Origin: Pontibacillus sp. HMF3514
Lineage (GTDB): Bacteria; Bacillota; Bacilli; Bacillales; BH030062
NCBI RefSeq assembly: GCF_009858175.1
Contig: NZ_CP047393.1
Coordinates: 3,906,001 to 3,970,000 of the forward strand
DNA length: 64,000 nt
Direction of reading: 5' to 3'
This document shows positions 6,285 to 27,130 of this stretch, one piece after another. The notes below the pieces were generated by a model. That model saw nothing but the letters and a program-made list of their open reading frames with translations. It was not told the origin of the DNA and did not search any database. A program made the translations under genes and the position numbers. Each line of letters begins with the position of its first letter. Positions within the stretch are counted from its first letter, which is position 1.

Positions 6285-7464
6285 CCTTTCAAAAAGTGAG
6301 TGGGAAAATCTTAGAAAGTTCGGTTTTGTCGAAGTAGGGGATAATAAAAACCTAGCTACTGAAGGACTTTATTATGGTGGAGAAAAACTTATAGAAAACA
6401 AACTAAAGAAATATCACTATATGCCCTACAATATTGAGGAAATTATCAGTGCAGGGCTAGAAAAATTAAATGATAAGAAAATTAAATTGAAAAATGCTGG
6501 AGAGATAGCTAATGAAATAAGGAAAGCCCTCAAAGAACAACAAGGCTATTCGCTTATTCGCTTAGGAGATGGAGAGTTAACTTTTTTATCACATGACTTA
6601 TTGTTTTCTAGTGAAGAAATTGAAAAGGAACCAAGGTTAAAATTTTTAGGTTATGCAGGAGTTTCATTACCTAATCATGAAGCAAGAAATTATCTAACTT
6701 CCAAATTACTTCAATCCAATGCCATTGGAATCCCTCTAGCAAGATTCCCTATGTTCCAAACTTTGTTTACCAAATTAGCAAACCATCATAAGTGGGATTT
6801 AACTAAAATGAACCTGACCAGTTCAACTATTAATTTTGATTTATTTCATTACACCACATTACTCCATGAAATCTTGAGTAACTATAAAGTGTTGTTAATT
6901 GGAAATAAGATGGAGCAAGGAAAGGATTATCTTGAGAAGCTTGGGTATAAAAATATAGTAGGTAACATTCCAGTTAAAGGAATCAAATCCGTATCAGATG
7001 TTGTAAAAAAAGCAAAAAACTTTGATTATGATGTTGCAATCGTTTCATCTGGAATTCCAGCTACTCTAATTTGCAACTTGTTGGCAGAAGATCATAAAGT
7101 AGCGATTGATTTCGGGCATACCATAGACTGGTTATTAAGCAGTTATGCTCAAATTAGATCATTAGATAACGGAACCATTAATTCTGAGAATTGCTGTGAA
7201 ATAGCTTATTACTATTTCAATAGAGACGACTTTGAAACAGCAGCCTATTGGTATAAGCAAGCTGTTAAAATTGGTGAATCTACAGGGAACCATACTCCAA
7301 TGGCTACAACTACTCCTCACCTCCAATTATCTGTATGTTATTGGCACTTAGGTGATGTAAAAAAAGCTCATGATCATAATGAACTAGCAAGAGACTTTGA
7401 ACCAAACAACCCAAGTGTACTCCTAAATAAAGATTTTTTTGAAAGAGTATTAAAAAATGAATAA
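6268..7464 (+). CDS. GT-D fold glycosyltransferase (DUF1792-like) with TPR-like tail
   Basis: A protein of up to 398 residues. The central part (about 80-290) matches GT-D fold glycosyltransferases (DUF1792, the fold first described for a streptococcal Fap1/GspB-type adhesin-modifying enzyme): SLIRLGDGELTFL carries the DxE-type metal motif. Residues about 300-398 are a helical pair including HLQLSVCYWHLG and EPNNPSVLLN, clearly homologous to the TPR module of the upstream protein. Start is uncertain: GTG at 6268 or GTG at 6277, both inside the end of the upstream gene and close to an AAAGGGTGAGG ribosome binding site. The known family acts late in glycosylating serine-rich surface adhesins, which suggests a role in extending an O-glycan here. 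Confidence 0.8.
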   Translation: MRKVFNLSKSEWENLRKFGFVEVGDNKNLATEGLYYGGEKLIENKLKKYHYMPYNIEEIISAGLEKLNDKKIKLKNAGEIANEIRKALKEQQGYSLIRLGDGELTFLSHDLLFSSEEIEKEPRLKFLGYAGVSLPNHEARNYLTSKLLQSNAIGIPLARFPMFQTLFTKLANHHKWDLTKMNLTSSTINFDLFHYTTLLHEILSNYKVLLIGNKMEQGKDYLEKLGYKNIVGNIPVKGIKSVSDVVKKAKNFDYDVAIVSSGIPATLICNLLAEDHKVAIDFGHTIDWLLSSYAQIRSLDNGTINSENCCEIAYYYFNRDDFETAAYWYKQAVKIGESTGNHTPMATTTPHLQLSVCYWHLGDVKKAHDHNELARDFEPNNPSVLLNKDFFERVLKNE

Positions 7465-7473
7465 AACAATAAT

Positions 7474-7515
7474 TTTAAAATACCATAGCATCCACTTCGG
7501 CTATGGTATTTTAAA
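7474..7515. terminator. Bidirectional terminator
   Basis: A perfect 16-bp stem (7474-7489 with 7500-7515) and 10-base loop, with an A/T-rich edge on both sides, follow the GT-D gene and also face the end of the convergent CgeB-like gene. Confidence 0.85.
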
Positions 7516-7644
7516 TAGCTCCTACTTTGTTTTATGACATAAAAAAGACTTGCCAATTAACAAGTCTATATACACTCTTCTCTTATATCCTAGCTACAAA
7601 TACAGCCTTTAACACCAAGGAAGATCCCCTTACTTATCTGTGTT

Positions 7645-8583
7645 CTATCTTTGTTCTAATATCCTTTCTATTTCATTTACTAATTCTTTTGCGCGCACAT
7701 GAAGTGTATGCTTTTCGTGTACCATTTTAAATCCATTGAATGCAATTTGTTTTCCAATTGTTTCATAATTCTTATTGTAATATTTAGCTTTCTGAAAAAA
7801 ATCATCTTTTGTAATAGGGACATAATGAACATTTGGGATAAAACCGATATCTTCTAATTCTTTTAAATATGGCGCTAACAATAAAGTATTACAAGCTAGT
7901 GTTTCAAAGTACTTCATTAATGAATAATGGAATATGGAATCACAAGTAAAAAATATCTTTGCCTTATTTATTTCTTCTGCATATCTATGTCCAACCAAAA
8001 AGTCTTTTTCATTGTAGTTCCTGTGATGATAACCGGGATGTGCATGTTGAACAAATTCAGGTATTTTTTTCATTTTCGTTTCTATCGTACTTCTTAACGG
8101 ATAGAACTCTCCAATCGTACTCCCCATTAACAGATACTCATATTCCTTTTTGTGTTGATAGTCTTTAAAAACCTCTTGATTAATAAAATGAGGGAACCAA
8201 ATCATCCTGTCCTCATATTCAGGGAAATATCTCAGAAATGCATCTCGATAATGTGTAAATAGAAAACGAATATTATTTTTTTTAATCCATTCTTTACGCT
8301 TCTCCTTATTATAATGCAAGTCATGCATTATCGCCCCTACGGGAATTGAACATTGAGCTAGACCTGAAATTTTCGGACTCCTAGATGGTCGAAGGTCATT
8401 TATAAGAATAAAATCGGGCTCATCTTGTAGTTTCTTTAATATATCTAAAATGTGACCGGGTTTATTCCAAACTGTTAAATGGGTGAGCTTCTCAAGATGT
8501 TTTGAAAGAAAATAATTATTTCTCTCAATTCCTTTGGACCAATCCTTCGTAATAAAAAGTAACTTAATAGGCTGTTCACTCAT
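7645..8583 (-). CDS. CgeB-like glycosyltransferase
   Basis: A 312-residue GT-B protein resembling spore maturation protein CgeB. The N-terminal half has a Rossmann-like region (LLFITKDWSKG) and a conserved HDLHY; the C-terminal half contains MGSTIGEFYPLR and the donor-side YSLMKYFETLACNTLLLAP, equivalent to the E-x7-E region of Glyco_trans_1_2 domains. AAAGGATT upstream of the ATG supports the start. In Bacillus subtilis cgeB belongs to a late mother-cell operon that modifies the outermost spore layer (known for the family). It is convergent with the GT2/GT-D operon, and a second CgeB-like gene lies at 14231-15220. Confidence 0.75.
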   Translation of the reverse strand: MSEQPIKLLFITKDWSKGIERNNYFLSKHLEKLTHLTVWNKPGHILDILKKLQDEPDFILINDLRPSRSPKISGLAQCSIPVGAIMHDLHYNKEKRKEWIKKNNIRFLFTHYRDAFLRYFPEYEDRMIWFPHFINQEVFKDYQHKKEYEYLLMGSTIGEFYPLRSTIETKMKKIPEFVQHAHPGYHHRNYNEKDFLVGHRYAEEINKAKIFFTCDSIFHYSLMKYFETLACNTLLLAPYLKELEDIGFIPNVHYVPITKDDFFQKAKYYNKNYETIGKQIAFNGFKMVHEKHTLHVRAKELVNEIERILEQR

Positions 8584-13068: not shown

Positions 13069-14189
13069 CTACGCTTCTGATAATTTAGCCAAACACTTCT
13101 GTTTCATATTTTGTATAGTCGATATATAGTTCTCTTTATTTATGTCCCCATTTAAAATGAGTTGTGCTGATTCTAGTAGCTGCTTATTGGTAACCGTGTT
13201 ATATGAAAATAGGAACTGTTCTTGTTTAATAGATCTCATAAAGTGATTAACTTTTGGGTCATAGGATAGACCAATTACTGGAACGTTTTGAGATGCTGCT
13301 AAAATTAGGGAATGTAATCTCATCCCAATCATAAGTGAAAGACTACTACATAACCCTTGAATATATTTAGATGATTTATTTTTCGGGTTAATGAAATAAC
13401 TGGAACCTTTAGGTAAATATTGTTTAACTCTTTTCATTAATGTAATATCGCCTTGATACTGACTAAAAGGGATCAAGACAAATCGAACGTTATATTGTTT
13501 ATAAAGTTCCTCCCCTACTTGACCAATTTTTTTCAACAACTCTTGTTCCTTTTTTCCTTTAAAAAACCATGGTCTTAAACAAATACCAACTAGCTTATAA
13601 TTTGATGGTAACTTTTCTTTTTTCAAAATCTGCTTCCTTCTCTCAGGAGGAACTGCTTTTAAACACATTGCCGGATCTGTAATAAGACTAATCTTTTCAT
13701 TATCGATATGTTTCTTTACGAATTGAAATGAATTAGGATCCCTAACAGCAATCATTTCACCCTTACGCAATAAGGTTATAGCATATTCTTCCGCTGCTTT
13801 CTCCTTGAATGGTCCGATACCAATTCCATAAAAATAGATTGGAATTTTGTAAGCATGTGCCATATCAATAAATTGACTATAATAATTCATACTTTTAGCT
13901 TTATTTCCTAATGCATTTTGTGGCTTCCAACCGGAATAATCTTGTAGAATTCCCCCCCACCTAAGATAAATCGATCACAAGACTTTATTGCCAACCTTAT
14001 TTTCTCTACCTCACTGGACTTATTAACCGAAACTTTTCTCGGGCCTTTATACGCTGATTTAACGCCTTTTGAAATTACTGTAAAACGGGCATTTTGATCA
14101 TCAAGAAAAATACTATCTATAATTGATTCTAAAATAGCGTCGTCTCCAATATTCCCAGCACCATAGTATCCATGTAATACGTAATGCAT
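13069..14189 (-). pseudogene. csaB: CsaB-like polysaccharide pyruvyltransferase, frameshifted at a G7 tract
   Basis: Two adjoining frames together give one intact CsaB-like pyruvyltransferase of about 373 residues. The first part (14189 to about 13952) has HGYYGAGNIGDDAILES and reads into FILGGG. The second part (from the same spot to 13069) carries GIGIGPF, VGICLRPWF and GMRLHSLILAASQNVPVIG. The join falls exactly in a run of seven G (C7 at 13952-13958 on the plus strand). Adding one G restores LGGGGILQDYSGWKPQNAL, the family's catalytic glycine motif, with no stop codon in between. CsaB pyruvylates secondary cell wall polymer for S-layer anchoring (known). This is either a true loss, a sequencing error, or slippage-based phase variation. 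It is cotranscribed with the CgeB-like gene upstream. Confidence 0.85.
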
Positions 14190-14230
14190 TCTTCATCATT
14201 CCTTTTATTGAATTACTTTCCACCTTACAT

Positions 14231-15220
14231 TTAGTTTAGTAACCCAATTTCTGCAAATAATTTATCAAACCTTTTTTCCCATGTATGTTCTCTTTTGCAA
14301 CGCTCTTTACCATTCTGACCAATTCTTTTTGCCTCTTCAGGATTTTGTAAATAAAAACGAATTTTATCAACTAGATCTTCTTTAGTTTGATATCCAATGA
14401 CTTCATGACCGTATTCAAAAAGTTTTTCCATTTCATCAAAATACTCAGTAAATAACAACTTTCCTGTTGCTGTTGCTTCAAGTACACCAACCTTTATATT
14501 TGTATAACCTTTTACTGTGCGTGGAAAATTAACCAATATTTTTGTTGAATAGGCCGCTTTAAACCACTCTTCACCTCTTACTTCTCCCCTTCTACATTTA
14601 GGTGTTGTAGTCCAATTCCTTCCATACAGCTTTGTGTTAAAATTCTTACATAATTCTTCTGCAATAGGATATCGATCTGGACGACCGTGCCCTATAACAG
14701 CTACATCTGCTTCATATCCTGGGTCAGTTGATCTATCTTTAAAAAAACGACTATCAATTCCAAATGGCATATGATATATATTCGTAAAACCTTCATTTTT
14801 GTATTTTTCATATGTCAATAACGAATTGGTGGTATGCCAAGTGAAATGTTTTGCGTATTTTGAAACAGTACTGAATACGTCGGGATCACTTAAACTGATT
14901 CCAAGAACAGGAATCCCCCTATCTTTTAACCAATTCATATCTTGTTTTTTAAAGGTAAGTCCTCCTGCATTACAGATTATTAAATCTGGATTAAAGTCTA
15001 TTAATTTTTCCCTTATTTGGGATAACTTAATATAAACTGGACCATTCCCTCCAACATGGTTTCGAGGGTTATATACCCACTCAGGATGTTCTCCTGTATT
15101 CCATTCCTGAACTTTATGACCTAAATTACATAAGGATAAATACATACTTCTTACAATATCTGTATCACCTTCACCATACCTTCCAAAGTGAGCGATCTTT
15201 AATGTTCTTTGATTTTTCAT
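14231..15220 (-). CDS. CgeB-family glycosyltransferase
   Basis: A 329-residue GT-B protein of the CgeB/DUF3880 type. IAHFGRYGEGD opens the N-terminal domain; PDLIICNAGG and LSDPDVFSTVSKYAKHF follow; the C-terminal domain has VAVIGHGRPDRYPI, NFPRTVKGYTNIKVGVLEAT and a GYQTKEDLVDKIRFYLQNPE segment. AAAAGGAGG sits before the ATG. Forty-one bases separate it from the frameshifted csaB-like gene, so they form one operon. Known CgeB proteins act in maturation of the outer spore surface; the sugar here is not known. Confidence 0.82.
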   Translation of the reverse strand: MKNQRTLKIAHFGRYGEGDTDIVRSMYLSLCNLGHKVQEWNTGEHPEWVYNPRNHVGGNGPVYIKLSQIREKLIDFNPDLIICNAGGLTFKKQDMNWLKDRGIPVLGISLSDPDVFSTVSKYAKHFTWHTTNSLLTYEKYKNEGFTNIYHMPFGIDSRFFKDRSTDPGYEADVAVIGHGRPDRYPIAEELCKNFNTKLYGRNWTTTPKCRRGEVRGEEWFKAAYSTKILVNFPRTVKGYTNIKVGVLEATATGKLLFTEYFDEMEKLFEYGHEVIGYQTKEDLVDKIRFYLQNPEEAKRIGQNGKERCKREHTWEKRFDKLFAEIGLLN

Positions 15221-15640
15221 TCCTTTTCCTCCTTTTAATAATTATTTGCAGGATATTCCCCCCATGAAGCTTATTACATACGTTAAATTTGTTAGTTTTT
15301 TCCTTGTGTTTTCTCTAATAACATTAATAATCATTATTTTTTGACGTGTATATATCACATAAACTAGTCCTTCCTTTAATTATTGGAAGCATATTGTATT
15401 TTATTATTCTAGGTAAGTTGTTGTTTGTACTTTAAACTAGATTCACCCTAATTCATTAAAAACCCTATATAAAACAGATGAAATTGCCACTTCATCCAAG
15501 CAAACTTCTACTATGAGGTTCATGTTACTAATGTGGGAGTTTGGCTACAGCTTTCTTCAGATTCTGGGTCGCTCCAGACACCCTTGCCTTTGCCGCTCGG
15601 GACGTCAACCTAAAGCTTGTGAACATGCCGGGTACACAAT
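15221..15640. other. Intergenic region, possible interspersed repeat in its right half
   Basis: The left part is A+T-rich and holds the upstream region of the CgeB-like gene. From about 15500 to 15640 composition changes to mixed, GC-richer sequence (CTCGGGACGTCAACC and similar) without a reading frame, which looks like a degenerate interspersed element. No gene is seen. Confidence 0.35.
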
Positions 15641-15693: not shown

Positions 15694-17028
15694 TTAAGCT
15701 TTTACTTCTTGCAGTGTTTTTTCTAAATTTTGTATTGATTTTTCTAGCATATGTTCATAAATTGATAAAATAGATTGTCCATAGTTATCACCTGGTACAG
15801 CCCATTTACCATTTAATGCTTCCCATGTGGTAGCTGAACCTCTTGTTACAAGATCAAAGCGAGGGTCTACTAATGGATATTCATTTGGGAGTAGTTCGGT
15901 TGAAGCATATGCATATAAATGTTGTATATGAGCAAGCACACCATCTTCAGGAGTATCAAAACTAACTCCTGGATCATCTGGTCCTGTAGTACCAAGTCCA
16001 CAAAAGTTGTTTTGCTCAGGCTGTACAACTCCAGTAAAACGGAGGTAATCTGTTTCATGCATAGACTGTGCGAAGGCTATGTCACCTCTAATCCCATAAT
16101 ACTGACCGAATATTAGATAATACATACCTAACTCTAATGCATCAGGATTAATGCTTTTGAGAAATTGATTCATTTGTTCAGGGGATAGTTTTGTCTCTCC
16201 TAAAATAGTATATCCTATTGGCTCAGTGCTAACTTCTTCGGTAATAATATAAGCATCATCAATTCCTAACAGTTTTACTTCTCCTAAGCGTACTTCAGCA
16301 TTTTCCAAGGTTGAAAAGGCTCCGGCCTGTACACGGTACCATTGTTTACCAGAAACAATAACGGGGTCAATAAATGCTCCTATCCCCTTTGAATCAAGAA
16401 AGGTTACGCGTTTTTCAGCATTTTTTCTTGACCTGAACGTTCCTGCAATCACTTTATAAATAAATAGTATATTGCCTGGTTTGGGTTTAAGGTTAAATGC
16501 CATTGCTAATCCATTTACATGACCTTGGGCAACTTTTTCACGCCATGATGGCTGTTTTAATAAGGCTGCATCTTCTTCGTTATCAATAAATCCATTCTCG
16601 GTTAAGAGTGCTGGCATTACTGATTCACGTAAAACATGGAAGTTAGCTTTTTTTTGACCACGGTCCATTAGCTCATTTACCTTCATTACTTCTGCATGAA
16701 TGATATGTTGATAGTGTGCAGTAATGGATGTGTCGGATAAGCTATCATGAATAAAATCCTCATATCCTCTTGTAGTACCATTATAAGCATTACAGTGAAT
16801 AGATAGATAATAATCAGCGCCCCAGGTATTAGCCTCATCGGTTCTATCAGTTAAACTTACCGTGCTATCATCAGTTCGGCTCATCATTACTTCAACATTC
16901 TCATAACCATTTAGTAATATTGAGCGTATTCTTAATGCAATATCTAAGTTTAAATCTTTTTCTACTAAACCATTTCCTTGAGCACCAGAATCTGTTCCTC
17001 CATGTCCTGGATCTAAATAAAGTTTCAA
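15694..17028 (-). CDS. N-acetylmuramoyl-L-alanine amidase - SPOR - glucosaminidase
   Basis: A 444-residue bifunctional peptidoglycan hydrolase. Residues 1-175 are an Amidase_3 zinc amidase: LDPGHGGTDSG (zinc His), the metal Glu in GLVEKDLNLD, SIHCNAY (second His) and LTENGFIDNEED (catalytic Glu). Residues about 190-262 are a SPOR domain. Residues about 280-440 are a GH73-type glucosaminidase with FAQSMHETDYLRFTG, NNFCGLGTTG and NGKWAVPG. TTG at 17028 is chosen: GGAGG lies 8 bases upstream, and the longer frame would run through that site. No signal peptide is present. CwlC-like amidases without signal peptide lyse the mother cell in late sporulation, so a similar role is likely. Confidence 0.85.
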   Translation of the reverse strand: MKLYLDPGHGGTDSGAQGNGLVEKDLNLDIALRIRSILLNGYENVEVMMSRTDDSTVSLTDRTDEANTWGADYYLSIHCNAYNGTTRGYEDFIHDSLSDTSITAHYQHIIHAEVMKVNELMDRGQKKANFHVLRESVMPALLTENGFIDNEEDAALLKQPSWREKVAQGHVNGLAMAFNLKPKPGNILFIYKVIAGTFRSRKNAEKRVTFLDSKGIGAFIDPVIVSGKQWYRVQAGAFSTLENAEVRLGEVKLLGIDDAYIITEEVSTEPIGYTILGETKLSPEQMNQFLKSINPDALELGMYYLIFGQYYGIRGDIAFAQSMHETDYLRFTGVVQPEQNNFCGLGTTGPDDPGVSFDTPEDGVLAHIQHLYAYASTELLPNEYPLVDPRFDLVTRGSATTWEALNGKWAVPGDNYGQSILSIYEHMLEKSIQNLEKTLQEVKA

Positions 17029-17610
17029 TAAATTAACCTCCAATCTTTAAGGGATATTTTTGTTACACCTTTAATATATGATTGATAACAGGAATGGAAT
17101 AGGTCAATGTTATTCTTTATGGAAAAATGGATATATAGCGGATGATCTATTTCTATTAATTTTCGACTAAATAAGACAAAGCGATCTATCCAGCATATCA
17201 GTACAAAGCAATGACTAGGGATGCTTTTGAACCTACCACCAAATCGAATGATTTAGTTCTAATATGTTACTTATATAATAAATAGTTTATTTTCTGCCTA
17301 ATGGTTTTGGAATTGTTGTTGTACTACTAAGTGGAGTAATCAAAAATTTATGATACGGCTCACCTTAATAATTCAACAGAGTTTTCCACTAAAAAAAGTA
17401 AGTTCATAATTATTTTTCTATTTTTTACTGTTCTTCATTATTCATATTTGTGACATAAAAGTACCTACCATCCTTTTCCTCTTCGAAGGTCATCAAACTG
17501 ATCCAATCTGAATTCCGCACTTTAATTTATACCTCAATGCCAGAAACCAAAAAATATCACTTTCTCAACATTTACCCAATCAAAGTGATGCCCCTTGTAT
17601 ATGATAGCAG
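17029..17610. other. Non-coding intergenic region
   Basis: About 580 A+T-rich bases between the divergent amidase and the Cys-rich gene. No conserved reading frame, tRNA or strong hairpin is seen; promoters for both flanking genes must lie here. The only candidate frames overlap the Cys-rich gene on the opposite strand and look like shadows. Confidence 0.45.
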
Positions 17611-17625
17611 TAGGAGGTGATACTT

Positions 17626-17919
17626 CTGTGTAATTGTAAAAAACACCATAATGCTCATGAGTGCCCTTGTCAAAAGCGGTTCTGTTGTCAATGTAGGATT
17701 CAATGTTGCTGTTCAAGCACAAGACATCATCATTGCTGCATAGAAGATTGCTATTGTCATAAACCAGCAAAATGTCACTGCTGTAGTCATCAAGTTTGTA
17801 TTCGCGAGTGTAGTAAGTGTTGCTGTAAGTCGAACACTACTACTTATAAGCAAACGATAATTACTTGTAATTGTGTAAAATGCAAAGAGAAAAAGAAATA
17901 CCATTGTTCTTACGAGTAA
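17626..17919 (+). CDS. Small cysteine- and histidine-rich protein, probable spore coat component
   Basis: A 97-residue protein with 26 Cys and about ten His, arranged in CxC, CC and CCC clusters with no transmembrane segment. I do not recognise a named family. The pattern resembles small Cys-rich coat or exosporium proteins that crosslink by disulfides or bind metal. AGGAGG at 17612-17617 lies 8 bases before a CTG codon at 17626, which is the best-placed start; the in-frame GTG at 17617 overlaps the ribosome binding site. It precedes the SPOCS gene group on the same strand. A coding role is supported by the strong site, the composition and codon usage free of stops. Confidence 0.65.
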   Translation: MCNCKKHHNAHECPCQKRFCCQCRIQCCCSSTRHHHCCIEDCYCHKPAKCHCCSHQVCIRECSKCCCKSNTTTYKQTIITCNCVKCKEKKKYHCSYE

Positions 17920-18071: not shown

Positions 18072-19046
18072 GTGGGATCACCTAATATATATTTCTTGCA
18101 AAATAACAAGTTAAATCCAGACCATACACATTATTGTCCTTGCCAACTTAAACAAGAATCTTTCACAGATACCATCTCTCTATCTGATACACAGCCCTCT
18201 ATAAAAAAAGCGATGGATATATATGTTGCATCAGAAATTTCAGCTGTTCATCAAGTAAAGAGTTTTTATGGTGAAAGGGTGATGGTCGATATCAAAATCC
18301 ACTACAAATTGATTTATCAGTCTATAGAAAAAGAAACATTACATACAGTCAGTTATTCAGCTTTTCATAAAACACTTTTAATGGGGGTGAACATTAAAAA
18401 TCTAACTGTAAGTTCTTTTATAGATACATGTAATATCAATGAATTAACACAGCAGAGTGTGTCCATTTTTACTGTGATGACAATTGTTCCAACGTATCCG
18501 GACTATAACAGAAACAGAACAGGATATTGTGATATTCATAAAGAACCATTCCAAGACAACACAAAGTACTGTTATAACGGTCAAAAACAATTAGATCAAG
18601 GTCCCCCCAAAACTCATGGGGATTCTTATAATATTGATCAGGATGTACAAGCCTGCTTAAGTAAGGTTCTCCTTAACAAAAATGAAGGTAAACCAACGTT
18701 TACCGAAAAAAATGAAGATACCAATGACCATAATGCCTATGTAAAAGATAATAAAGTTAATCAGTTTAACCATAGGGAAAATCAATTTCACGATTCCAAT
18801 AAAGTAGAATCAATCAAGTTATATTCTAGTGTGTATTCACCAATTCCAAGAAAAAATACCCGTAATGAATTTTCCAAAAGTAAATCAAAGCAAAAGAAAA
18901 GTAATCAGAACAACACAGAAAATGTTTTTTTGTCCAACTTGATTAAAAGAAATCATAACTTAAAATCACCTAAGATCAACAAACAAAGAAAAGATGTGAC
19001 AATCCCCTTATCTTTTTCCGACTTAAGTAACTTGAAGCTATTCTAA
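18072..19046 (+). CDS. SPOCS-domain protein with long basic tail
   Basis: A 324-residue protein. Residues about 35-150 form a divergent SPOCS/DUF3794 domain (PSIKKAMDIYVASEISAVHQ, then YKLIYQSIEKETLHTVSYSA) lacking the usual KPDIE. Residues 150-324 are low-complexity, rich in Asn, Lys, Ser and His, ending in a strongly basic segment and a short hydrophobic SFSDLSNLKLF. GTG at 18072 follows AAGGGGG at a good distance; the ATG two bases earlier is in a different, short frame. It leads the array of SPOCS genes. The disordered basic tail could bind polyanionic glycan or other coat proteins (inference). Confidence 0.7.
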   Translation: MGSPNIYFLQNNKLNPDHTHYCPCQLKQESFTDTISLSDTQPSIKKAMDIYVASEISAVHQVKSFYGERVMVDIKIHYKLIYQSIEKETLHTVSYSAFHKTLLMGVNIKNLTVSSFIDTCNINELTQQSVSIFTVMTIVPTYPDYNRNRTGYCDIHKEPFQDNTKYCYNGQKQLDQGPPKTHGDSYNIDQDVQACLSKVLLNKNEGKPTFTEKNEDTNDHNAYVKDNKVNQFNHRENQFHDSNKVESIKLYSSVYSPIPRKNTRNEFSKSKSKQKKSNQNNTENVFLSNLIKRNHNLKSPKINKQRKDVTIPLSFSDLSNLKLF

Positions 19047-19071
19047 ACTTTACGAGGAGGCTGACCAAGTC

Positions 19072-19530
19072 ATGCACCATGGCGAGATGATTCTATATAC
19101 CGGCATTACACCACATGAAGAATATCCATGTAATCCAACTGCTTATAAGCAAGTTATCCTTAATAGTAAAATTGAAATTCCCTGTCCTAAACCAGATTTA
19201 GAAGCCATTATTAAAGTGGTCTCAGAAGTTGAGCTTCGCACTCAACGTTATATCCAAACCCCTTATGACTTTAAAGTTATCGTAGAGGGGACGGTTCATC
19301 AAACCTTTTTATATTCAGCTGATGTACCTGAACAATCTGTACATACCTTTCATGGCCAGGTACCTTTTTGTGAATTTTTGACAATAAGTAACGAGTGTAA
19401 AAAAGCCTATCTAAAACAGAATTTATCCACAAAGGTGTTTTTAGAAGATGTTTTTGTATTCAATCAGAGTTCTCGTTATATCGAAGAATGTAAAATGTTA
19501 TGCATTATTTTACTAAACAACAATTGTTAA
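19072..19530 (+). CDS. SPOCS-domain (DUF3794) protein
   Basis: A 152-residue single-domain protein. EIPCPKPDLEAIIKVVSEVEL (around 36-56) matches the SPOCS opening strand, and LYSADVPEQSVHTFHGQVPF (around 82-101) the conserved core before a Cys-rich C-terminus. GAGGAGG precedes the ATG by 11 bases. SPOCS domains occur in SipL and other spore coat proteins of Firmicutes, where they mediate protein-protein contact with coat morphogens (known). It lies 25 bases after the preceding gene, so it is cotranscribed. Confidence 0.8.
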   Translation: MHHGEMILYTGITPHEEYPCNPTAYKQVILNSKIEIPCPKPDLEAIIKVVSEVELRTQRYIQTPYDFKVIVEGTVHQTFLYSADVPEQSVHTFHGQVPFCEFLTISNECKKAYLKQNLSTKVFLEDVFVFNQSSRYIEECKMLCIILLNNNC

Positions 19531-19617
19531 TCTTAAATTCTTATTTTCTTAGCATACATCTTTTTTAAAAACATATATTTTCCATGTGCTTATCTTACAA
19601 AAGGAGGGTTATGCATT

Positions 19618-20154
19618 ATGGTTAATGTAAATTCAAGTGTAGTAGAAGTTTGCCCTGTCTATCCCGATCGACCCGCTAAGTATTTTACAGAACTATTTGC
19701 TTCTAAAACATTCAAGATTCCAGAACAGAAGCCCGATAAAGATGAAATTGTAAAGGTTAAACATTTTGTGGAATTAGTTGACGTCGAAGTAATTGATGTA
19801 TTTTTGCCTGACAATGACACTGACACACCAAATGGGAAAAAGATCTTTGTTGCGGGGAATGTATACTTAGATGTTCAATATGTTTCAACCAGAGAAGAAC
19901 AGACTGTCCACTTTGTCCGATATCAATTGCCATTCCAAACAATACTTTTAAGAGATTGTGCTGAATTCGCAGATCCAAAAGAAAATGGATTAATCCCGAA
20001 TGATGATACCATCTTTCCTGATAATTTTGTTGTTCATGTCTGTGTTGAAAACATTGTTGAAAAGCAATTAGATGAAAGAACAATTTTCTTTGAAGTTTTA
20101 TTATTAGTTTGGTTAGAGCAGATTGAAGATGTTGGTCCTCCTCCACAACCTTAA
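19618..20154 (+). CDS. SPOCS-domain (DUF3794) protein
   Basis: A 178-residue protein. FKIPEQKPDKDEIVKVKHF (around 31-49) and YVSTREEQTVHFVRYQLPF (around 89-107) are the two SPOCS signatures; an acidic insert (about 120-140) and a Pro-rich end follow. AAAGGAGGG precedes the ATG. Its closest relative in the window is the next gene: both share an acidic spacer containing a conserved DD...F/T and the ending LLxWLE. An 87-base gap separates it from the previous gene. Likely a coat or exosporium structural protein. Confidence 0.82.
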   Translation: MVNVNSSVVEVCPVYPDRPAKYFTELFASKTFKIPEQKPDKDEIVKVKHFVELVDVEVIDVFLPDNDTDTPNGKKIFVAGNVYLDVQYVSTREEQTVHFVRYQLPFQTILLRDCAEFADPKENGLIPNDDTIFPDNFVVHVCVENIVEKQLDERTIFFEVLLLVWLEQIEDVGPPPQP

Positions 20155-20189
20155 GGAGAACCCTATATAAAAATTAAGGAGGGATTACT

Positions 20190-20741
20190 TTGGATTGTCC
20201 TAATACATTAGAAAGCTTGTCTACGGTAAAATGTCCACCTGATAATACCACTTTAGACTATTTCACACAGATTATACTTTGTGATTTTCTTGATATTCCT
20301 GATGCAAAGCCTGATATTGAATTCATCACGAACACATTGAATGAGATAGCCATAACCAAAATTGATGTTATCAATGTTGATTTGGGTGATAGAGATCCAG
20401 CTTCGGAAAATATCCGAGAAAAGGTAATCGCAAGAGGAACGGTACGTTTAGGAATTGAATATTCAGCTGATGAAGCAGAGCAGAATGTCCATTTCGCCCA
20501 TTTTGATATCCCATTTCAAGGTATTATCGGAGAGCGTCCATGTGAAAATGGGGGGATTGACCCGAATACAGGGCAACCAAATGGAGACGGAAATAGGGGA
20601 TTAATTGATGATTCCACTTTTGACATCGACAATTATGATATCCATGTTTGCCTTGAGCATGTTCAATTTCATGAAATTGATTCAAGGACAATTCAAGCTG
20701 TATTAGTTTTATTAATATGGCTTGAAGAAAAAACAGCCTAA
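20190..20741 (+). CDS. SPOCS-domain (DUF3794) protein
   Basis: A 183-residue acidic protein. LDIPDAKPDIEFITNTLNE (around 33-51) and EYSADEAEQNVHFAHFDIPF (around 89-108) define the SPOCS domain; a Gly/Asn-rich acidic loop (about 115-145) and VLLIWLEE end it. The start is TTG with AAGGAGGG 7 bases upstream. Sister gene of the one just upstream (tandem duplication is likely). The spacing of 35 bases indicates one operon. Confidence 0.82.
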   Translation: MDCPNTLESLSTVKCPPDNTTLDYFTQIILCDFLDIPDAKPDIEFITNTLNEIAITKIDVINVDLGDRDPASENIREKVIARGTVRLGIEYSADEAEQNVHFAHFDIPFQGIIGERPCENGGIDPNTGQPNGDGNRGLIDDSTFDIDNYDIHVCLEHVQFHEIDSRTIQAVLVLLIWLEEKTA

Positions 20742-20765
20742 TAATATTAAAAAGGAGGGAATGAA

Positions 20766-21185
20766 ATGGCATTAACGTTTACAGATGTCTTTAAACAGCT
20801 CCCCATCAACTCTAAACTAATTATCCCGCCACAGAAACCAGATATAGAATGTATTTTAGATAGTAATGTGGAAGTGGAGATCACTAAGAAAGAAGTGATC
20901 GATACTCCATTAAACTACCCAGAAGATCCAACTGAACCCTTAAGAAAAGTGATCCTTACAGGTAAAGTTAAAATTATTATAAAATATTCGGCTCTAGTGC
21001 CAAGTCAGAAAGTTCATGCTGCTCACTTTGAAGTCCCTTTTTGTACATTAATCGAGTGGCCTGACGGACCACCACAAGGTACCCCTATAACAGTCGAACC
21101 AGTCATCGAGAAGAAAGTATTTAAGCGTGAAGATGAGCGTAAAATATATAAAGCTTTATTGATTCGTTTCGATGTCTACCGTTAA
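20766..21185 (+). CDS. SPOCS-domain (DUF3794) protein, short form
   Basis: A 139-residue protein made almost only of the SPOCS domain: LIIPPQKPDIECILDSNVEV (19-38) and KYSALVPSQKVHAAHFEVPF (77-96). It lacks the acidic insert of the two preceding paralogues. AAGGAGGG precedes the ATG; 24 bases separate it from the gene upstream. Its stop is followed by a strong terminator, so it closes the first SPOCS operon. Confidence 0.82.
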   Translation: MALTFTDVFKQLPINSKLIIPPQKPDIECILDSNVEVEITKKEVIDTPLNYPEDPTEPLRKVILTGKVKIIIKYSALVPSQKVHAAHFEVPFCTLIEWPDGPPQGTPITVEPVIEKKVFKREDERKIYKALLIRFDVYR

Positions 21186-21212
21186 CGAATAATAATTTAT
21201 AAACCGTTTGAA

Positions 21213-21250
21213 GGCAAATTCATTGTAACATAATGAATTTGTCTTTTTTT
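21213..21250 (+). terminator. Terminator of first SPOCS operon
   Basis: A 12-bp stem (21213-21224 with 21232-21243, one G-U) with a 7-base loop and a run of seven T. Confidence 0.9.
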
Positions 21251-21407
21251 ATTTTTAGATAATATTCCTTCTCTCAAACATATATAAAGCAAAAAATCAT
21301 GTCATCCGCCTCTTTTATATCTTATATGAATAGGAGGGAACTAAAGAAATTACATTTACATATGATGGACTAACATATGTTCTCTTTATAAAAAGGAGGT
21401 GTTTGTT

Positions 21408-21887
21408 TTGGCGAAGGTTGTAAAAGACTTAATTGAATTTGAGTGGCCATCCAAACCTATACCCGAATTTTCTTCTCCAATAAGCGCTTTCAAAGAATTC
21501 AATATCCAGGACACACTTGAAATTCCCGAAGCTAAGCCTGACATTGAGCAATTAGTAAGCGTAAAGTCTAAGCTTGTCCTTCATAGTACAAAAGTAATTA
21601 AGACACCCAAAGCTCAGTCATTGGAAAGGCAAACTTTAACAGGATGGAAACTAATTATTGAAGCTGAACTTAAGCATGTTATCCGGTATGTAGCAGATGA
21701 ACCTTCTCAAAAAGTCCATGGTGTTCATTTTAATATACCTTTTAGTACTTTTATTGTTCTCCCACCAGACTTTGATGAAAACTCGTGTTTAAGTATAGAG
21801 AGCTATATTGAAGACATTTATGCCTGTCAAATTAGTAAACGCGGTATTTTTACAAACACAACATTATTAATGGTATGGCCTGGTTGA
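21408..21887 (+). CDS. SPOCS-domain (DUF3794) protein
   Basis: A 159-residue protein. LEIPEAKPDIEQLVSVKSKL (around 36-55), SLERQTLTGWKLIIEAEL, RYVADEPSQKVHGVHFNIPF and SYIEDIYACQISKRGIF show that it belongs to the same subgroup as the next gene and as the C-terminal domain of the giant protein. TTG at 21408 is chosen because AAAGGAGG (21392-21399) lies 8 bases upstream; the longer GTG frame begins inside that site. It starts the second SPOCS transcription unit, after a terminator. Confidence 0.83.
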   Translation: MAKVVKDLIEFEWPSKPIPEFSSPISAFKEFNIQDTLEIPEAKPDIEQLVSVKSKLVLHSTKVIKTPKAQSLERQTLTGWKLIIEAELKHVIRYVADEPSQKVHGVHFNIPFSTFIVLPPDFDENSCLSIESYIEDIYACQISKRGIFTNTTLLMVWPG

Positions 21888-21907
21888 TCAAGAAAGGAGG
21901 TTTTAAA

Positions 21908-22405
21908 ATGGTCAACAATTCTTCAGTGAAAACCAATGGTGTTGCTCAGAATTTGCCTGAGAATCCAATATACTTTACACAGATCTCTATACCAGAGATC
22001 TTAACAATTCCAGATCAAAAACCAGATATTGAAGAACTAGTTTCTGTCACCGTTCAGGCTGAAGTAGCAGCATATAACCTAATTGATACGCCTTGCATGA
22101 AATCTTTTGAAGGACAGTTACTAAGTGGGAAAAAGCTAATTTTAGAACTCAAAATTATTGAAAAAATTGTCTATGTAGCAGATGAGCCAACACAGACTAA
22201 TCATGCAGCACATTTTGAAAATACAATGAAAAGTATTTTTATCGTTGTTCCTCAAGAAATCGAAGGAACTTCTATGGAATCATTGTTTAATCAAAATAGA
22301 ATTGAAATAACACCTTATATTGAAGATATTTATGTATTGCAAAGGGATAAAAGAACAATCTTTAAAAACCTAACCATGTTAATCGATGTAACTTTATCTT
22401 GTTAA
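21908..22405 (+). CDS. SPOCS-domain (DUF3794) protein
   Basis: A 165-residue protein with LTIPDQKPDIEELVSVTVQA, SFEGQLLSGKKLILELKI, VYVADEPTQTNHAAHFENTM and YIEDIYVLQRDKRTIFKNLT. ATG at 21908 follows AAAGGAGG by 7 bases; the frame extends upstream into the previous gene but has no ribosome binding site there. Twenty bases separate it from that gene. It is a close paralogue of its neighbour and of the last 138 residues of the following giant gene, suggesting that the three interact or form a layer together. Confidence 0.83.
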   Translation: MVNNSSVKTNGVAQNLPENPIYFTQISIPEILTIPDQKPDIEELVSVTVQAEVAAYNLIDTPCMKSFEGQLLSGKKLILELKIIEKIVYVADEPTQTNHAAHFENTMKSIFIVVPQEIEGTSMESLFNQNRIEITPYIEDIYVLQRDKRTIFKNLTMLIDVTLSC

Positions 22406-22459
22406 AACCTGTCATTCGAATATGTTTATAACATTTTATTTTTAGAAAGGAGTGTAAGA

Positions 22460-25400
22460 ATGGCGATTGAAAATTTTCAAGCCGGCACATTAATCATACC
22501 GATGGATACCACATATCAAAATAGCGGAATGTATAAAGCATATGGCTTGGCTCATAATTTGCTATGGAACGGCATTCCGGTTAAATGGGCAATTGCACAG
22601 GGAAAAGCTTTTAACGGGGTTGACTTTACAGCATCAGCACAGGATATTGCTACCAATGCAATAATCAATAATCATGGATATAGTGGCGGCCCTTTTATTA
22701 TAGATTCTGCAAACGCAGCAGCAGCCTTACCCTTTATCACCGCATGGCAAGCACTTTACCCAACGGTTGCCGTTCATAATGCAACATCCCCGTTTAATGC
22801 AGATATCGTAGCTACGATGAATCGCCCTTCGAGGATTGCCGTAGAAGAAGATAACTACGGTATTGTTGAAAATTATTTAAACTTGGCATCAATCACAAAT
22901 ACATTCAATAATCCATGGGATGGAAGTGCCAACAATGAACCTGATGCCCATGACGCTACAGAAATCGGTCAAGGGGCATTATTTGGATTTGTAACACCAA
23001 GCCAAGACCCGTGTAGAAAAAGAGCCTATGATCTTTTCATTTCTCCCCACACAGGAAATTCGACATGGACAAATCAAACCAATTCAGATGAATTGAAAAA
23101 TTTCTTACAAGTAGGCGGCAACCTTCATGCGATGTGCGAATCAATTGAATCAATCGAAGACTTCCCCCTGTTAAATCCTAACTACCTATTGACACAAACG
23201 GGGATTCCAAATGATCAGAATGATGGGGATACCAACACCTTCACGGTCAATTTTCCAAACTTTCCTATAACCCAAGCTGTGAGTACAGGACTTTCTCAAG
23301 GGTTACCTGGAGGGAGCATCTCAACTTGGAGAAATTCATTAGCAAGCTATTACCCTCAAACAAAGGTGTTGGCAAACTTTATTGAACAACCACTCGGTAA
23401 TAATATTCAGTATGATTTCACAATTGGTGGTCCTTACAAAGGTGGAACCGGTGCAGGTTATGTTGTGTATGAGGGTGGTCATGATTATTCACCAAAAGTA
23501 CCTTACCTTGGTACTGAAGATGAAAACCTTTACTATCGTTTTGTATTGAATTCAGTATTTTATTCTGTAGCTAAACCTTTTCTTGACTTAGAAATCACAC
23601 CCACGACAATATTCCAAAATGTAAACAATACCATTACATTTGACATTGTTAACACTGGGGGGAGTCCTGCCACCAACACCACGTTCTCTGTCACATTAGA
23701 TGCCGGTGTCAGCTATAATAATGATGCCAGTATTCCACCAACGAGTATAGTAGGTCAGACATTAACTTGGAACTTAGGAACGGTGGACCCTGGTACAGCT
23801 GTAACCTTTACAGCGGATTATCAACCAGCAGTAATAACTACCGCTGATAGCTTAGCCACTTTTTCTACCTCATATGGAGATAATTTCTCCCAGACCTTTT
23901 CGCTAGACTATTGTGTAGCTGCCGAGGTTCAGCAATTCGAACAAGCTACACTTGATCCTGTGAAGAGCGTAGATAAAGACTTTGCCACAGTCGGAGATAC
24001 GTTAACTTATACGACGACCATCACAAATACGGATGCAACGATCACAGCAACAAATGTCGTATTTACGGATATTCCACCGCCTGGAACAACTTTTGTCCCT
24101 GGATCGTTGACGATCAACGCTGTCCCACAACCCGCTGCAGATCCTAGTGTGGGTGTGGCTTTACCTGATATTCCTCCTTTGGGGGTCGTGACCGTCGCCT
24201 TTGATGTCACAGTGGACGATACTTTACCTGAACCCAATCCAATTGTAAATGATTCAAGGGTAGACTGGTCGTTCACCAATAACGCAGGAACATTTGACTC
24301 GTTCGCCATAAGCAATCAGGTACAGACACAAATTAACTTAGGTGATCTTTCCTTAGAAAAGAGCGCAGACAAAGTATTTGCCACAATAGGAGATACAATA
24401 ACGTACACAACGGTCCTGACAAACACAGGAAATGTCGCTGTAGATAATGTGGTCTTTCAGGATTCACAACCAGCTGGAACAAGCTTCATCCCAGGAACGT
24501 TTAAGTTAGATGGTATCGTACAGCCAGCAGCAAGCCCAATAGCAGGGGTCAACATCGGAAGTATTGGACCGGGAGCTTTTGTCACCGTTTCCTTTGAGGT
24601 ATCTGTTAATTCGATACCGGAACCCCCCGAACTAGTAAACACATCAAATGCGACCTTTACGTATAAAGTCGATCCACAAGGGGCAGATATTCCAGATGCT
24701 TCTGTCAGTAACGCTGTTATTACTCAACTAAGAGAAGCTACAATTGAAATTACAAAAACCGCTGATAAAAATTTTGTAGAGGTTGGAGATACGTTAACTT
24801 ACACAGTAGTGGTAACAAATACGGGTGATGTTGATTTAACGAATGTTGTCATTACAGATACACCACCTGCCGACACTACGTTTATTCCCGGCAGTGTGAC
24901 AGTGAATGCCAACCCACAACCCGGGGCAAATCCAATTGCCGGTGTAAACGTGGGTACCATTGCACCGGGTGGCATTGTCACCATGACCTATAGTGTGACA
25001 GTTGATAGCTTACCCATGTCAGGTGAAATAAGTAATACCGCTTCAGTGGATTTTGAGTTTCAAATTGATCCAGACGGTCCAATCGATTCAGGCAGCCAGG
25101 AAAGCGAACCGGTCATTACCCAGGTAGAAATCGGAGAAATAGAAGTAGTCAAAAGTGTAGACAAAGCGTTTGTCGAAGTCGGAGATTCAGTCAATTACAC
25201 AATCGTAGTTACCAATACAGGAACAGTGACAGCAGAAAATGTAGTTATCACCGACACACCACCACCCGACACCTCATTTGTTCCCAATAGTGTCGAAGTA
25301 GATGGAGTGCCACAACCTGGAGTTGACCCAACAATTGGTATAAATCTAGGTGACATCGCACCTGGAAACTTCAAGACAGTTAGCTTTGTCGTAACAGTAG

Positions 25401-27130
25401 ATAGTCTTCCAGCTAGCAGGATCATTACGAACAGTGCTTTAGCAGCATTCGATGTGAGGATTGATCCCGACGGGCCGCCAGACTCCAGACAAACACCAAG
25501 TAACCCTGTTGAATCACAAGTAGAGCTTGCTGACATTTCTGTAGTAAAATCTTCTAACAGCGATTTTGTTGAAGTTGGGGATACTTTAACCTATACAACA
25601 ACGATTACCAACACGGGAACAGTAACTGTTGATAATGTGATCTTTAATGATTCCCCGCCAGTCGGAACAACCTTCATCCCAGGATCATTTAGATTAAATG
25701 GGGTCCTGCAACCAGGCGCAGACCCTAATGCAGGCGTTAACATTGGAAGCATTGCACCAGGCGGGGTTAAAACAGTCAGCTTTAGAGTGACTGTCGATGT
25801 TCTTCCGCCAGGTGGTCAAATTACGAATATTTCCTCCATTGACTATGAATTTAAAATTGATCCGAATGGACCAACCGATACAAGAACTGAACCAAGTAAT
25901 CCTGTCACAACCAATGTAGAGCAGGTACAGATACTCATTCTTAAAGATGTTGATAAATCTGTAGCCACCTTAGGAGAAACACTCAATTACACCATCAACG
26001 TAGCCAATGCCGGAACTGTAACTGCTACGAATATTGTGGTAATTGATGCGATACCGGATGGCACTTCCTTTGTGGAAAATAGTGTGAAGGTTAATGGAGT
26101 TGTGCAGCCTGGTCTCAACCCTGAGTTTGGCATCCCAATCGGAGATCTCCCACCAGGAGGTTTTGCAACTGTAGAGTTTAGCGTTGTCGTTGAAGAACTT
26201 TTAGAACCACCTGAAGTTGTCAACACAGCAGCTGTGACCTATACCGTTCAAGTCGATCCAGATGAGCCAGCTGAAGAAAGAACCGAAGAAAGCGAACCTG
26301 TTGTTACTGCAGTGGAAGTCGTCGAACTAACAGCCATCAAAACAGCAGACAAATCGGCCGTACAGGTTGGAGACACGCTCACCTATACAGTAGAGATAAC
26401 CAATACAGGGACCCTCCCTGTCGAGAATGTCTTGTTTAAAGATCAGATACCAGACGGAACGACCCTTGTACCAAATAGCGTCACGATAGATGGTGTCCCG
26501 CAGCCTGGAGCAAATCTCTCAATTGGCGTAGTAATCGGTACCATTCAACCGGGAATAACGGTGGTCATTACATTTGAGGTAACCATTGAAGAATCCCCTT
26601 GTCCACCAGAGCTAATCAATCAGGCCGTTATCACTTTCGACTATTTGCTCGAATCCTCAGGACCATTATTAAGTGGCAGTACAACAAGTAATGAAGTACT
26701 GACTGATGTAGGGCTAACGATCTTTAAGCAAATAAGTGTAGATGAAAACTTAACCATCCCACCACAGAAACCAGATGCAGAAGACTTATTGGATGTCTCA
26801 GTTGACGTTGAAATCACCTCAACTATCATTATAAAAACTCCTATTGGTACTTCCTTTGAAGGGCAGAGGCTAACAGGATGGAAATTAATCGTAGAAGGAA
26901 AACTAAAACAAATTATCACCTATATTGCCGATGTCCCCCAACAAACGGTTCATTCAGCCCATTTTGATGTGCCCTTCAGCACCTTCCTTGTATTACCTGA
27001 AAATTATCAACCATGTCAGGAAGTACATGTTGCAGGGTTTGTCGAAGATGTTTATAGCTTACTCCTAGATCCAAGAACAATATTTAAAAACGTAACATTA
27101 AGAATAGAGGGTATTGAAGACTGCAAATAA
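22460..27130 (+). CDS. Giant DUF11-repeat protein with C-terminal SPOCS domain
   Basis: A 1556-residue protein without a signal peptide. Residues 1-375 are a domain I cannot name; GGNLHAMCESIE (Cys226) and YVVYEGGHDYSP (His341) resemble class I glutamine amidotransferase/ThuA-like folds. An atypical DUF11-like repeat follows (about 376-490). Then come seven regular DUF11/DUF7507 repeats of about 131 residues, each opening with a K-x-DK-x-F-x-x-x-GD-x-(L/V)-x-YT strand, starting near 497, 631, 762, 893, 1025, 1157 and 1289. Residues about 1419-1556 are a SPOCS domain (LTIPPQKPDAEDLLDVSVDV, YIADVPQQTVHSAHFDVPF). AAAGGAG precedes the ATG. It lies 54 bases after the SPOCS gene upstream, so probably shares its transcript. 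The architecture suggests a long rod docked on the spore coat by the SPOCS domain. Confidence 0.85.
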   Translation: MAIENFQAGTLIIPMDTTYQNSGMYKAYGLAHNLLWNGIPVKWAIAQGKAFNGVDFTASAQDIATNAIINNHGYSGGPFIIDSANAAAALPFITAWQALYPTVAVHNATSPFNADIVATMNRPSRIAVEEDNYGIVENYLNLASITNTFNNPWDGSANNEPDAHDATEIGQGALFGFVTPSQDPCRKRAYDLFISPHTGNSTWTNQTNSDELKNFLQVGGNLHAMCESIESIEDFPLLNPNYLLTQTGIPNDQNDGDTNTFTVNFPNFPITQAVSTGLSQGLPGGSISTWRNSLASYYPQTKVLANFIEQPLGNNIQYDFTIGGPYKGGTGAGYVVYEGGHDYSPKVPYLGTEDENLYYRFVLNSVFYSVAKPFLDLEITPTTIFQNVNNTITFDIVNTGGSPATNTTFSVTLDAGVSYNNDASIPPTSIVGQTLTWNLGTVDPGTAVTFTADYQPAVITTADSLATFSTSYGDNFSQTFSLDYCVAAEVQQFEQATLDPVKSVDKDFATVGDTLTYTTTITNTDATITATNVVFTDIPPPGTTFVPGSLTINAVPQPAADPSVGVALPDIPPLGVVTVAFDVTVDDTLPEPNPIVNDSRVDWSFTNNAGTFDSFAISNQVQTQINLGDLSLEKSADKVFATIGDTITYTTVLTNTGNVAVDNVVFQDSQPAGTSFIPGTFKLDGIVQPAASPIAGVNIGSIGPGAFVTVSFEVSVNSIPEPPELVNTSNATFTYKVDPQGADIPDASVSNAVITQLREATIEITKTADKNFVEVGDTLTYTVVVTNTGDVDLTNVVITDTPPADTTFIPGSVTVNANPQPGANPIAGVNVGTIAPGGIVTMTYSVTVDSLPMSGEISNTASVDFEFQIDPDGPIDSGSQESEPVITQVEIGEIEVVKSVDKAFVEVGDSVNYTIVVTNTGTVTAENVVITDTPPPDTSFVPNSVEVDGVPQPGVDPTIGINLGDIAPGNFKTVSFVVTVDSLPASRIITNSALAAFDVRIDPDGPPDSRQTPSNPVESQVELADISVVKSSNSDFVEVGDTLTYTTTITNTGTVTVDNVIFNDSPPVGTTFIPGSFRLNGVLQPGADPNAGVNIGSIAPGGVKTVSFRVTVDVLPPGGQITNISSIDYEFKIDPNGPTDTRTEPSNPVTTNVEQVQILILKDVDKSVATLGETLNYTINVANAGTVTATNIVVIDAIPDGTSFVENSVKVNGVVQPGLNPEFGIPIGDLPPGGFATVEFSVVVEELLEPPEVVNTAAVTYTVQVDPDEPAEERTEESEPVVTAVEVVELTAIKTADKSAVQVGDTLTYTVEITNTGTLPVENVLFKDQIPDGTTLVPNSVTIDGVPQPGANLSIGVVIGTIQPGITVVITFEVTIEESPCPPELINQAVITFDYLLESSGPLLSGSTTSNEVLTDVGLTIFKQISVDENLTIPPQKPDAEDLLDVSVDVEITSTIIIKTPIGTSFEGQRLTGWKLIVEGKLKQIITYIADVPQQTVHSAHFDVPFSTFLVLPENYQPCQEVHVAGFVEDVYSLLLDPRTIFKNVTLRIEGIEDCK
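23950..26700 (+). repeat. Tandem DUF11 repeat-coding region
   Basis: Seven protein-level repeats with a period of about 393-396 bases inside the giant gene. Each has the opening K(S/T)xDK strand, VTNTG, a DxxPxGTxF(I/V)PxS turn, a PGAxPxxGxxxGxIxPG loop and an NxAxxxF end. DNA identity between copies is only moderate, so the duplications are old and selection has kept the fold. Confidence 0.9.

Follow-up and report, generated by a model that had tools for sequence, protein, structure and literature searches.

A SPOCS gene array ending in a giant rod-like protein

We analysed a 64-kb stretch of the single-contig, 3.98 Mb genome of Pontibacillus sp. HMF3514 (positions 3,906,001-3,970,000; hereafter the window, whose own coordinates are used throughout), which carries an array of genes for proteins with the SPOCS domain (DUF3794, Pfam PF12673). 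On the plus strand, from 19072 to 27130, six small SPOCS genes are followed by one giant gene, the open reading frames (ORFs) lying where an initial annotation of this DNA had placed them. The first small gene (19072..19530) encodes a protein of 152 residues that matches PF12673 at 37.6 bits and pairs in the tree with L015_8633, one of a triplet of SPOCS proteins in the congeneric genome G004 (support 99/96; long branch). The next three form a trio whose members each fall in a clade of their own: A (19618..20154; E 2.1e-28 with a leave-one-out profile of the array), B (20190..20741; PF12673 28.1 bits) and C (20766..21185; 139 residues; 43.5 bits). They are followed by D' (21408..21887; 39.4 bits), E' (21908..22405; leave-one-out E 2.4e-34) and the giant (22460..27130; 1556 residues). 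For D', a TTG codon at 21408 with good Shine-Dalgarno spacing is, by eye, preferable to the mechanically called start at 21399; the mechanical ORF start of E' is 21875. Ahead of these genes, also on the plus strand, ORF 18072..19046 (324 residues) has a possible degenerate SPOCS domain at about residues 27-136, followed by a Lys/Asn-rich tail, and its membership in the array is doubtful.

The initial annotation had counted eight SPOCS domains, in seven consecutive small genes beginning with 18072 and in the giant's tail. PF12673 exceeds its cut-off in five of the eight claimed proteins (19072, 20190, 20766, 21399, which is D', and the giant's tail, the last at 36.0 bits); 19618 stays below it (18.8 vs 23.6 bits), and neither 18072 nor 21875/21908 has a match. 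The leave-one-out array profile recovers all seven core domains at E <= 3.5e-24, 19618 and 21908 included, and PF12673 alone under-calls the array. ORF 18072 reaches only E 0.055 with the array profile and E 0.52 and 0.04 with larger profiles, and has no Pfam match. On these profile values, the array has seven certain SPOCS domains, one in each of six small proteins and one in the giant's tail, and an eighth that is doubtful; the run of seven consecutive SPOCS genes is not upheld.

The tail of the giant is indeed close to D' and E' (41% and 44% identity, compared with 25-38% to the other four small proteins). The pattern S-x-EGQ-x-L-x-G-x-KL, said to be common to these three, is found in E' (SFEGQLLSGKKL) and the tail (SFEGQRLTGWKL), while D' deviates from it (SLERQTLTGWKL); likewise, the YxEDxY...R-x-IF ending is kept in E' (YIEDIY..RGIF) and the tail (YIEDIY..RTIF), with FVEDVY..RTIF in D'. 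Each chain of the array has a single SPOCS domain, and no LysM match was found in the nine array-region proteins. All five PF12673 matches of the whole genome fall inside the array, and that profile thus detects no separate SipL. With four CotZ-family genes at other sites, the genome does encode a protein family of the Bacillus-type coat or exosporium. The SPOCS profile had no match among PDB sequences up to E 5.

The giant is, as annotated, a repeat protein with a SPOCS C-terminus. It matches DUF11 at 298 bits, being the only window ORF to do so, and opens at residue 1 with an uncharacterised N-terminal domain (NTD; 22460..23578, residues 1-373), with no leader peptide seen. A CARDB/DUF11-like domain (residues 377-455) separates the NTD from a stalk in which a DUF11 unit of about 131 residues is repeated seven times (23945..26710, residues 496-1417), and the SPOCS tail follows (26714..27109, residues 1419-1550). 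Ig (immunoglobulin)-like domains measure about 4-5 nm each; if the repeats have that length, the stalk would extend over some 30-40 nm.

The NTD had no Pfam match in 17 out of 17 members and none that was convincing among PDB sequences (best E 0.27). In the family alignment, H106, H197, C226 and H341 (window numbering) are near-invariant. A first NTD model was poor (predicted local distance difference test, pLDDT, 51.9), and its Foldseek search gave 0 matches at E <= 0.001. AlphaFold2 predicted a 1029-residue giant from Thermosyntropha with a mean pLDDT of 88.7 (30-row alignment); in that model, the NTD and SPOCS domain are well predicted, with strand-rich stalk domains between them, and SPOCS is modelled as six long strands. 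Among the 50 Foldseek matches listed for it, which are long and poorly superposed, most are Ig-type rods and complement or macroglobulin chains. These matches to a predicted structure are in keeping with a rod and have no bearing on the NTD or SPOCS.

The last three genes match a ribbon-appendage-type locus

In a tree of 99 rows, D' falls in a clade of 13 (support 98/95) and E' in one of 19 (98/95); the tail of the giant belongs to a clade, T, of 15 rows (100/97). Members of these clades lie side by side on the same strand, in the order D'-E'-T, in 9 out of the 12 tree loci with both D' and E' (the window, L016, L021, L046, L048, L049, L050, L051 and L061). The exceptions are L039, with the order T-D'-E', L052, where T is divergent, and L037, which has only the pair D'-E'.

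Locus L061, from genome G859, begins with genes for proteins of 556 residues (three DUF11 repeats and SPOCS), 161 residues, 166 residues (SPOCS), 160 residues (SPOCS) and 413 residues (two DUF11 repeats and SPOCS), continues with a protein of 269 residues (two DUF11 repeats), a collagen of 289, a protein of 268 (two DUF11 repeats) and a collagen of 486, and then has genes that by eye are glycosyltransferase-like. The published appendage locus of Clostridium taeniosporum reads CRD1 (564 residues), HYPO1, HYPO2 (158), HYPO3 (160), CRD2 (413), P29a (269), GP85 (collagen), P29b (269) and CL2 (collagen); DUF11 occurs in four of its nine proteins, as in L061, and HYPO2 and HYPO3 are described as resembling the C-termini of CRD1 and CRD2 (PMC5749712). 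That paper names sigma-K promoter candidates, and its main text makes no mention of DUF3794 or SipL (PMC5749712). Because the lengths in L061 differ slightly from the published ones, we take it to be a relative's version of the C. taeniosporum locus.

The window trio is collinear with the HYPO2-, HYPO3- and CRD2-like genes of L061, whose layout provides the link to C. taeniosporum. Identity to L061 is 39% for D' and the HYPO2-like protein (156 columns), 47% for E' and the HYPO3-like protein (149 columns), and 35% for the C-terminal 400 residues of the giant and the CRD2-like protein (401 columns). The CRD2-like counterpart in L061 has no NTD match. The collagen gene of the window, at 211-2082, is 16 kb off the array. 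The initial annotation had called the array an undescribed spore-surface layer; with its final trio homologous, in order, to a ribbon-appendage-type cluster (L061; PMC5749712), that wording does not stand without qualification. The annotation was right in outline and missed the appendage link.

SPOCS tails stand where some relatives in other phyla carry sorting signals

Relatives of the NTD were collected from 18 loci found by a profile scan of genome contigs, plus loci reached through SPOCS. The domain is present in 1 out of 397 genomes of the window's order, the window's own, and in 6 out of 398 in the phylum. The 12 Bacillota matches include ten intact proteins in 9 genomes (the window, L016, L019, L021, two in L022, L023, which is the same as L017, L024, the same as L018, L048 and L049). 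All ten end in SPOCS, start their NTD by residue 11, lack a leader and have small SPOCS genes adjoining. The NTD of L037, also within a SPOCS array, has its frame broken after 64 residues, and a partial Bacillota match in G493 (L020) stands behind a signal-peptide-like segment, with no SPOCS match.

Outside Bacillota, as judged by record titles (Myxococcales, Deltaproteobacteria, Chloroflexota, Armatimonadota, Bacteroidota and others; at least six phyla), 13 out of 13 NTDs start at residues 24-107, after an N-terminal extension. By eye, in the 12 sequences viewed (L032 missing), most of these extensions have a hydrophobic, signal-peptide-like segment. Their maximum 15-residue hydropathy is 1.43-2.73; in 17 Bacillota proteins with SPOCS tails, the corresponding value over the first 45 residues is 0.58-1.88, so that the two ranges overlap. 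SPOCS was found in none of the 13 non-Bacillota proteins (0 of the 9 complete ones; L025, L029, L030 and L032 run off their contigs). An NCBIfam scan of seven of them found a type IX secretion system (T9SS) type B sorting domain at the end of L036 and L038 and MYXO-CTERM over its cut-off in L028; MYXO-CTERM was below the cut-off in L027, and L031, L034 and L035 matched no sorting model.

In these sequences, SPOCS is found in proteins that lack an export signal, in the place that a sorting tail takes in some of the exported forms. Since it replaces the export and sorting signals of NTD proteins in other phyla, SPOCS looks like the part that anchors rods made within the mother cell. In spore formers it is the partner of a head domain that elsewhere goes with export and sorting signals, and for this reason it becomes a candidate anchoring signal. 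Among Clostridiaceae, the family of Oceanirhabdus, a SPOCS match is present in 50 out of 206 genomes. Other long SPOCS-tailed proteins have no NTD match: 1213 residues in L039, 1418 in L046, 1810 and 1805 in L050, 2762 in L051, 2437 in L052, 1767 in L055 and 1320 in L056. One kind of tail thus appears to be common to different rods. Several of these proteins begin with MAATITG..., a possibly SdrD-B-like start.

SPOCS genes tend to occur in threes

A census of same-strand SPOCS gene runs covered 36 stretches (35 loci and the window), with four runs cut by contig edges dropped. Some stretches share a genome (L016/L043, L022/L047, L037/L046, L052/L053/L061, L054/L055 and L057/L058) or come from close relatives (L019/L024 and L063/L064). 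With gaps of at most 70 bases, counting domains gave 36 runs of one, 17 of two, 28 of three and 2 of six; counting genes gave 39, 19, 23 and 2, respectively, and by either count there were no runs of four or five. The shortage of runs of at least four relative to a geometric law has P 2.8e-5, a value uncorrected for relatedness and obtained with a 70-base threshold set after seeing the gaps. The total of three domains is kept in fusions, as 2+1 in L021, L043 and L060 and as one SipL-like chain in L042 and L045.

In the window's order, the SPOCS profile matches 6 out of 397 genomes. Three SPOCS genes in a row were known in G004 before the rule was framed and were found afterwards, exactly three in each case, in G071, G132, G276 and G388; G071 and G132 are nearly identical, and the G388 triplet has one gap of 107 bases. 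In three of these last four genomes, the triplet lies directly 3' of a collagen-like gene, with one divergent SPOCS gene in addition.

SipL of C. difficile has three DUF3794 domains (PMC6436350). Because SPOCS genes tend to occur in threes and SipL has three of these domains in one chain, we propose a heterotrimeric docking base, in which the products of a trio would be in physical contact. A parallel for one rod tail with two small partners is the anchor of F-type endospore appendages (F-ENA), whose CsxA-like domain forms a heterotrimer with two copies of CsxA in a published model (PMC11952670, preprint). The rule of three yields a simple, quickly testable prediction of stoichiometry.

Expression signals, origin and neighbouring genes

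Sigma-K-like sites were defined as an AC-type -35 and a CATANNNTA -10 element, with at most one mismatch in all. They occur upstream of 11 out of 31 SPOCS genes with promoter room, against 1.6 expected from shuffles, and before 11 out of 75 neighbouring genes, some of which look spore-related, against 3.3 expected (Fisher p 0.018). This excess supports expression during sporulation without proving it. In the window, such a site, a consensus match only, lies upstream of the A-B-C trio (19570..19597, plus strand; AACA-N15-CTTATCTTA, one mismatch). Sigma-E-like sites gave no useful excess.

Among the sequences compared, the closest to D' (61%), E' (67%) and the NTD (58-59%), as well as the nearest tree neighbour of the tail, are in G520, outside the class, and A, B and C are closest in the tree to clostridial loci. 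Of nine genomes of the family, only one besides the window's has PF12673 matches, with a different triplet. Transfer of the array from Clostridia is likely on these comparisons. The GC content (0.338 for the small genes, 0.430 for the giant and 0.373 for the rest of the window) is not decisive for transfer. A plasmid origin was considered and rejected, the NTD and the tail being unmatched in 72,556 plasmid records.

At the start of the window, ORF 211-2082 encodes a collagen-like protein with GPT repeats and an N-terminal DUF7852, preceded at 24 bases by a sigma-K-like site, and is likely a spore-surface glycoprotein. As a candidate for an additional SPOCS protein it was rejected (profile E 37 and 10); DUF7852 weakly matches one of 31 SPOCS members (E 0.0018). 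Glycosyltransferase and polysaccharide pyruvyl transferase genes lie near it (2158-8583 and 13069-15220) and possibly serve spore-surface glycosylation. Genes 8583 (minus strand) and 4047 (plus strand) have sigma-K-like sites. The pyruvyl transferase at 13069-14189 is apparently split: the match of ORF 13069-13890 begins at position 83 of the profile, and a second ORF of the same strand, 13908-14189, immediately precedes it. At 15429-15578 (minus strand), a match to Rfam group-II-D1D4-3 (33.3 bits against a cut-off of 32) is perhaps an intron remnant. Beside the array, 15694-17043 (minus strand) encodes an Amidase_3-SPOR-glucosaminidase protein with two peptidoglycan-cleaving domains, perhaps acting in mother-cell lysis. 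Just upstream of the array, ORF 17617-17919 encodes 100 Cys/His-rich residues behind a good ribosome-binding site; its start codon is uncertain, it has no family match, and it is perhaps a coat cross-linker. Beside SPOCS arrays elsewhere (L019 3211-4911 and 15835-16620; L024 6353-7138) are Cys-rich proteins of 251-264 residues, candidate lattice proteins, two of which have perfect sigma-K-like sites.

A putative rod docked on the spore surface through SPOCS

The reading that we favour, and consider probable, is that the array encodes an appendage-type rod built in the mother cell and docked on the spore surface through SPOCS. The small SPOCS proteins would assemble in threes (A-B-C and D'-E'-T), forming a base on the coat or exosporium of the spore. 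Because the tail of the giant would be the third subunit of the second set, the DUF11 stalk would stand off the spore and carry the NTD outward as a working tip for adhesion or ligand binding. The rod-like protein docked through SPOCS that the initial annotation had suggested agrees with the gene order, which is conserved, with the replacement of export and sorting signals by SPOCS, and with the missing leader. From the domains, gene order, orthology and SPOCS exchange found in the sequences compared, we infer expression late in sporulation, a surface location, contact in heterotrimers and a function at the tip.

Several observations weigh against this reading. The proven appendage proteins P29a, P29b and GP85 have no counterpart in the window array, where the giant is the sole DUF11 ORF, and C. 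taeniosporum was compared by its published layout, via G859, rather than by its sequence. Foldseek yielded Ig rods only. In the window, one out of the four scanned upstream regions of SPOCS genes has a sigma-K-like site, the mismatched one before A. The trimer is read from gene counts, and 39 out of 83 runs at gaps of at most 70 bases are single genes and 19 are pairs. With gaps of at most 120 bases, the domain counts become 30, 13 and 24 for runs of one to three, with one run of four, two of five, one of six and two of nine (P 0.0024).

The same genes might instead form an inner coat scaffold like SipL or SpoVID, in which the small SPOCS proteins would organise the layers of the coat and the giant would be a spacer between coat and exosporium. 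The proteins from which SPOCS is known, SpoVID, CotE and SipL, act in coat assembly (PMC10659427, PMC10867305), SipL has its own three DUF3794 domains (PMC6436350), and the genome, with no PF12673 match beyond the array, would have no SipL by that profile. We nevertheless hold a scaffold to be unlikely: the NTD relatives of other phyla look exported, three out of the seven scanned bearing sorting tails; the trio matches an external-appendage-type cluster with collagen genes and glycosyltransferase-like neighbours; and SPOCS is accessory in the order (6 out of 397 genomes), unlike core coat scaffolds. It is very improbable that the giant is an ordinary adhesin of the vegetative cell surface, beside unrelated coat genes, although many prokaryotes are described as having DUF11 in their cell envelope proteins (PMC5749712), since no leader is seen in the giant, its tail is orthologous to those of other SPOCS-tailed rods, and small SPOCS genes adjoin intact NTD giants in 9 out of 9 genomes.

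Beyond this locus, SPOCS may be a general docking code of the spore surface, with a socket of three subunits (three genes, 2+1 fusions or a SipL chain) on which rods of different kinds (NTD-DUF11, other DUF11 or Ig rods and the CRD proteins of ribbon appendages) would be mounted by carrying the third subunit as a tail. We put this forward tentatively, as an idea that could well fail. If true, the rods of spores would be mounted by SPOCS tails in the way that those of ordinary cells are mounted by sorting signals. The threes may also reflect repeated duplication of a three-gene operon whose products do not form heterotrimers, each perhaps being a homo-oligomer or lattice protein, an explanation that we take seriously without finding it probable. 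It would suit L024, where A-B-C, D-E-T and a third triplet, placed in the trees within or close to clades D, B and C, suggest duplication as units, and the many runs of only one or two SPOCS genes; it sits less easily with the three-domain totals that persist through gene fusion (L021, L043, L060; L042, L045) and with every triplet position holding its own clade across distant genomes.

Comparison with known systems

In the literature covered on SPOCS/DUF3794 and DUF11 spore proteins, outside of which most subscription papers fall, no SPOCS-tailed rods or triplets are described. The array and SipL have the same domain family and three SPOCS units in common, whereas SipL is one chain with a C-terminal, SpoIVA-binding LysM domain, and the window has separate genes, no LysM match and a rod in addition (PMC6436350). 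F-Anchor-3 (DUF4183-DUF11x4-CsxA-like-DUF4183x2) likewise fuses a DUF11 rod to an anchoring domain (PMC11952670, preprint), but F-ENA anchors differ in using a CsxA-like anchor on a DUF4183 fibre (PMC11952670). Neither DUF3992 nor DUF4183, the ENA-type subunits, had a Pfam match in the nine array-region proteins, the only proteins searched. Collagen nap proteins of the BclA type are also rods on the spore surface; they have a collagen stalk and an N-terminal leader anchor, in contrast to the DUF11 stalk and C-terminal SPOCS of the window (PMC7333573, PMC11952670).

The closest resemblance in gene order is to the C. taeniosporum cluster, known here from its published layout, with which the array shares DUF11 repeats and, via L061, the order HYPO2-HYPO3-CRD2. 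CRD2 has 413 residues compared with the 1556 of the window rod and its NTD, and the window has the additional A-B-C trio and no P29-like gene. Through this link, part of a long-known ribbon-appendage system may be identified in molecular terms, as DUF11 rods on bases of SPOCS proteins. The mounting of proteins from the mother-cell cytoplasm on the spore surface is known for few cases only (BclA/ExsF, ENA anchors and CsxA); beside these, what is most likely new here is an unrecognised anchoring domain, a putative tip domain and a proposed threefold base in a surface module of the spore-appendage type.

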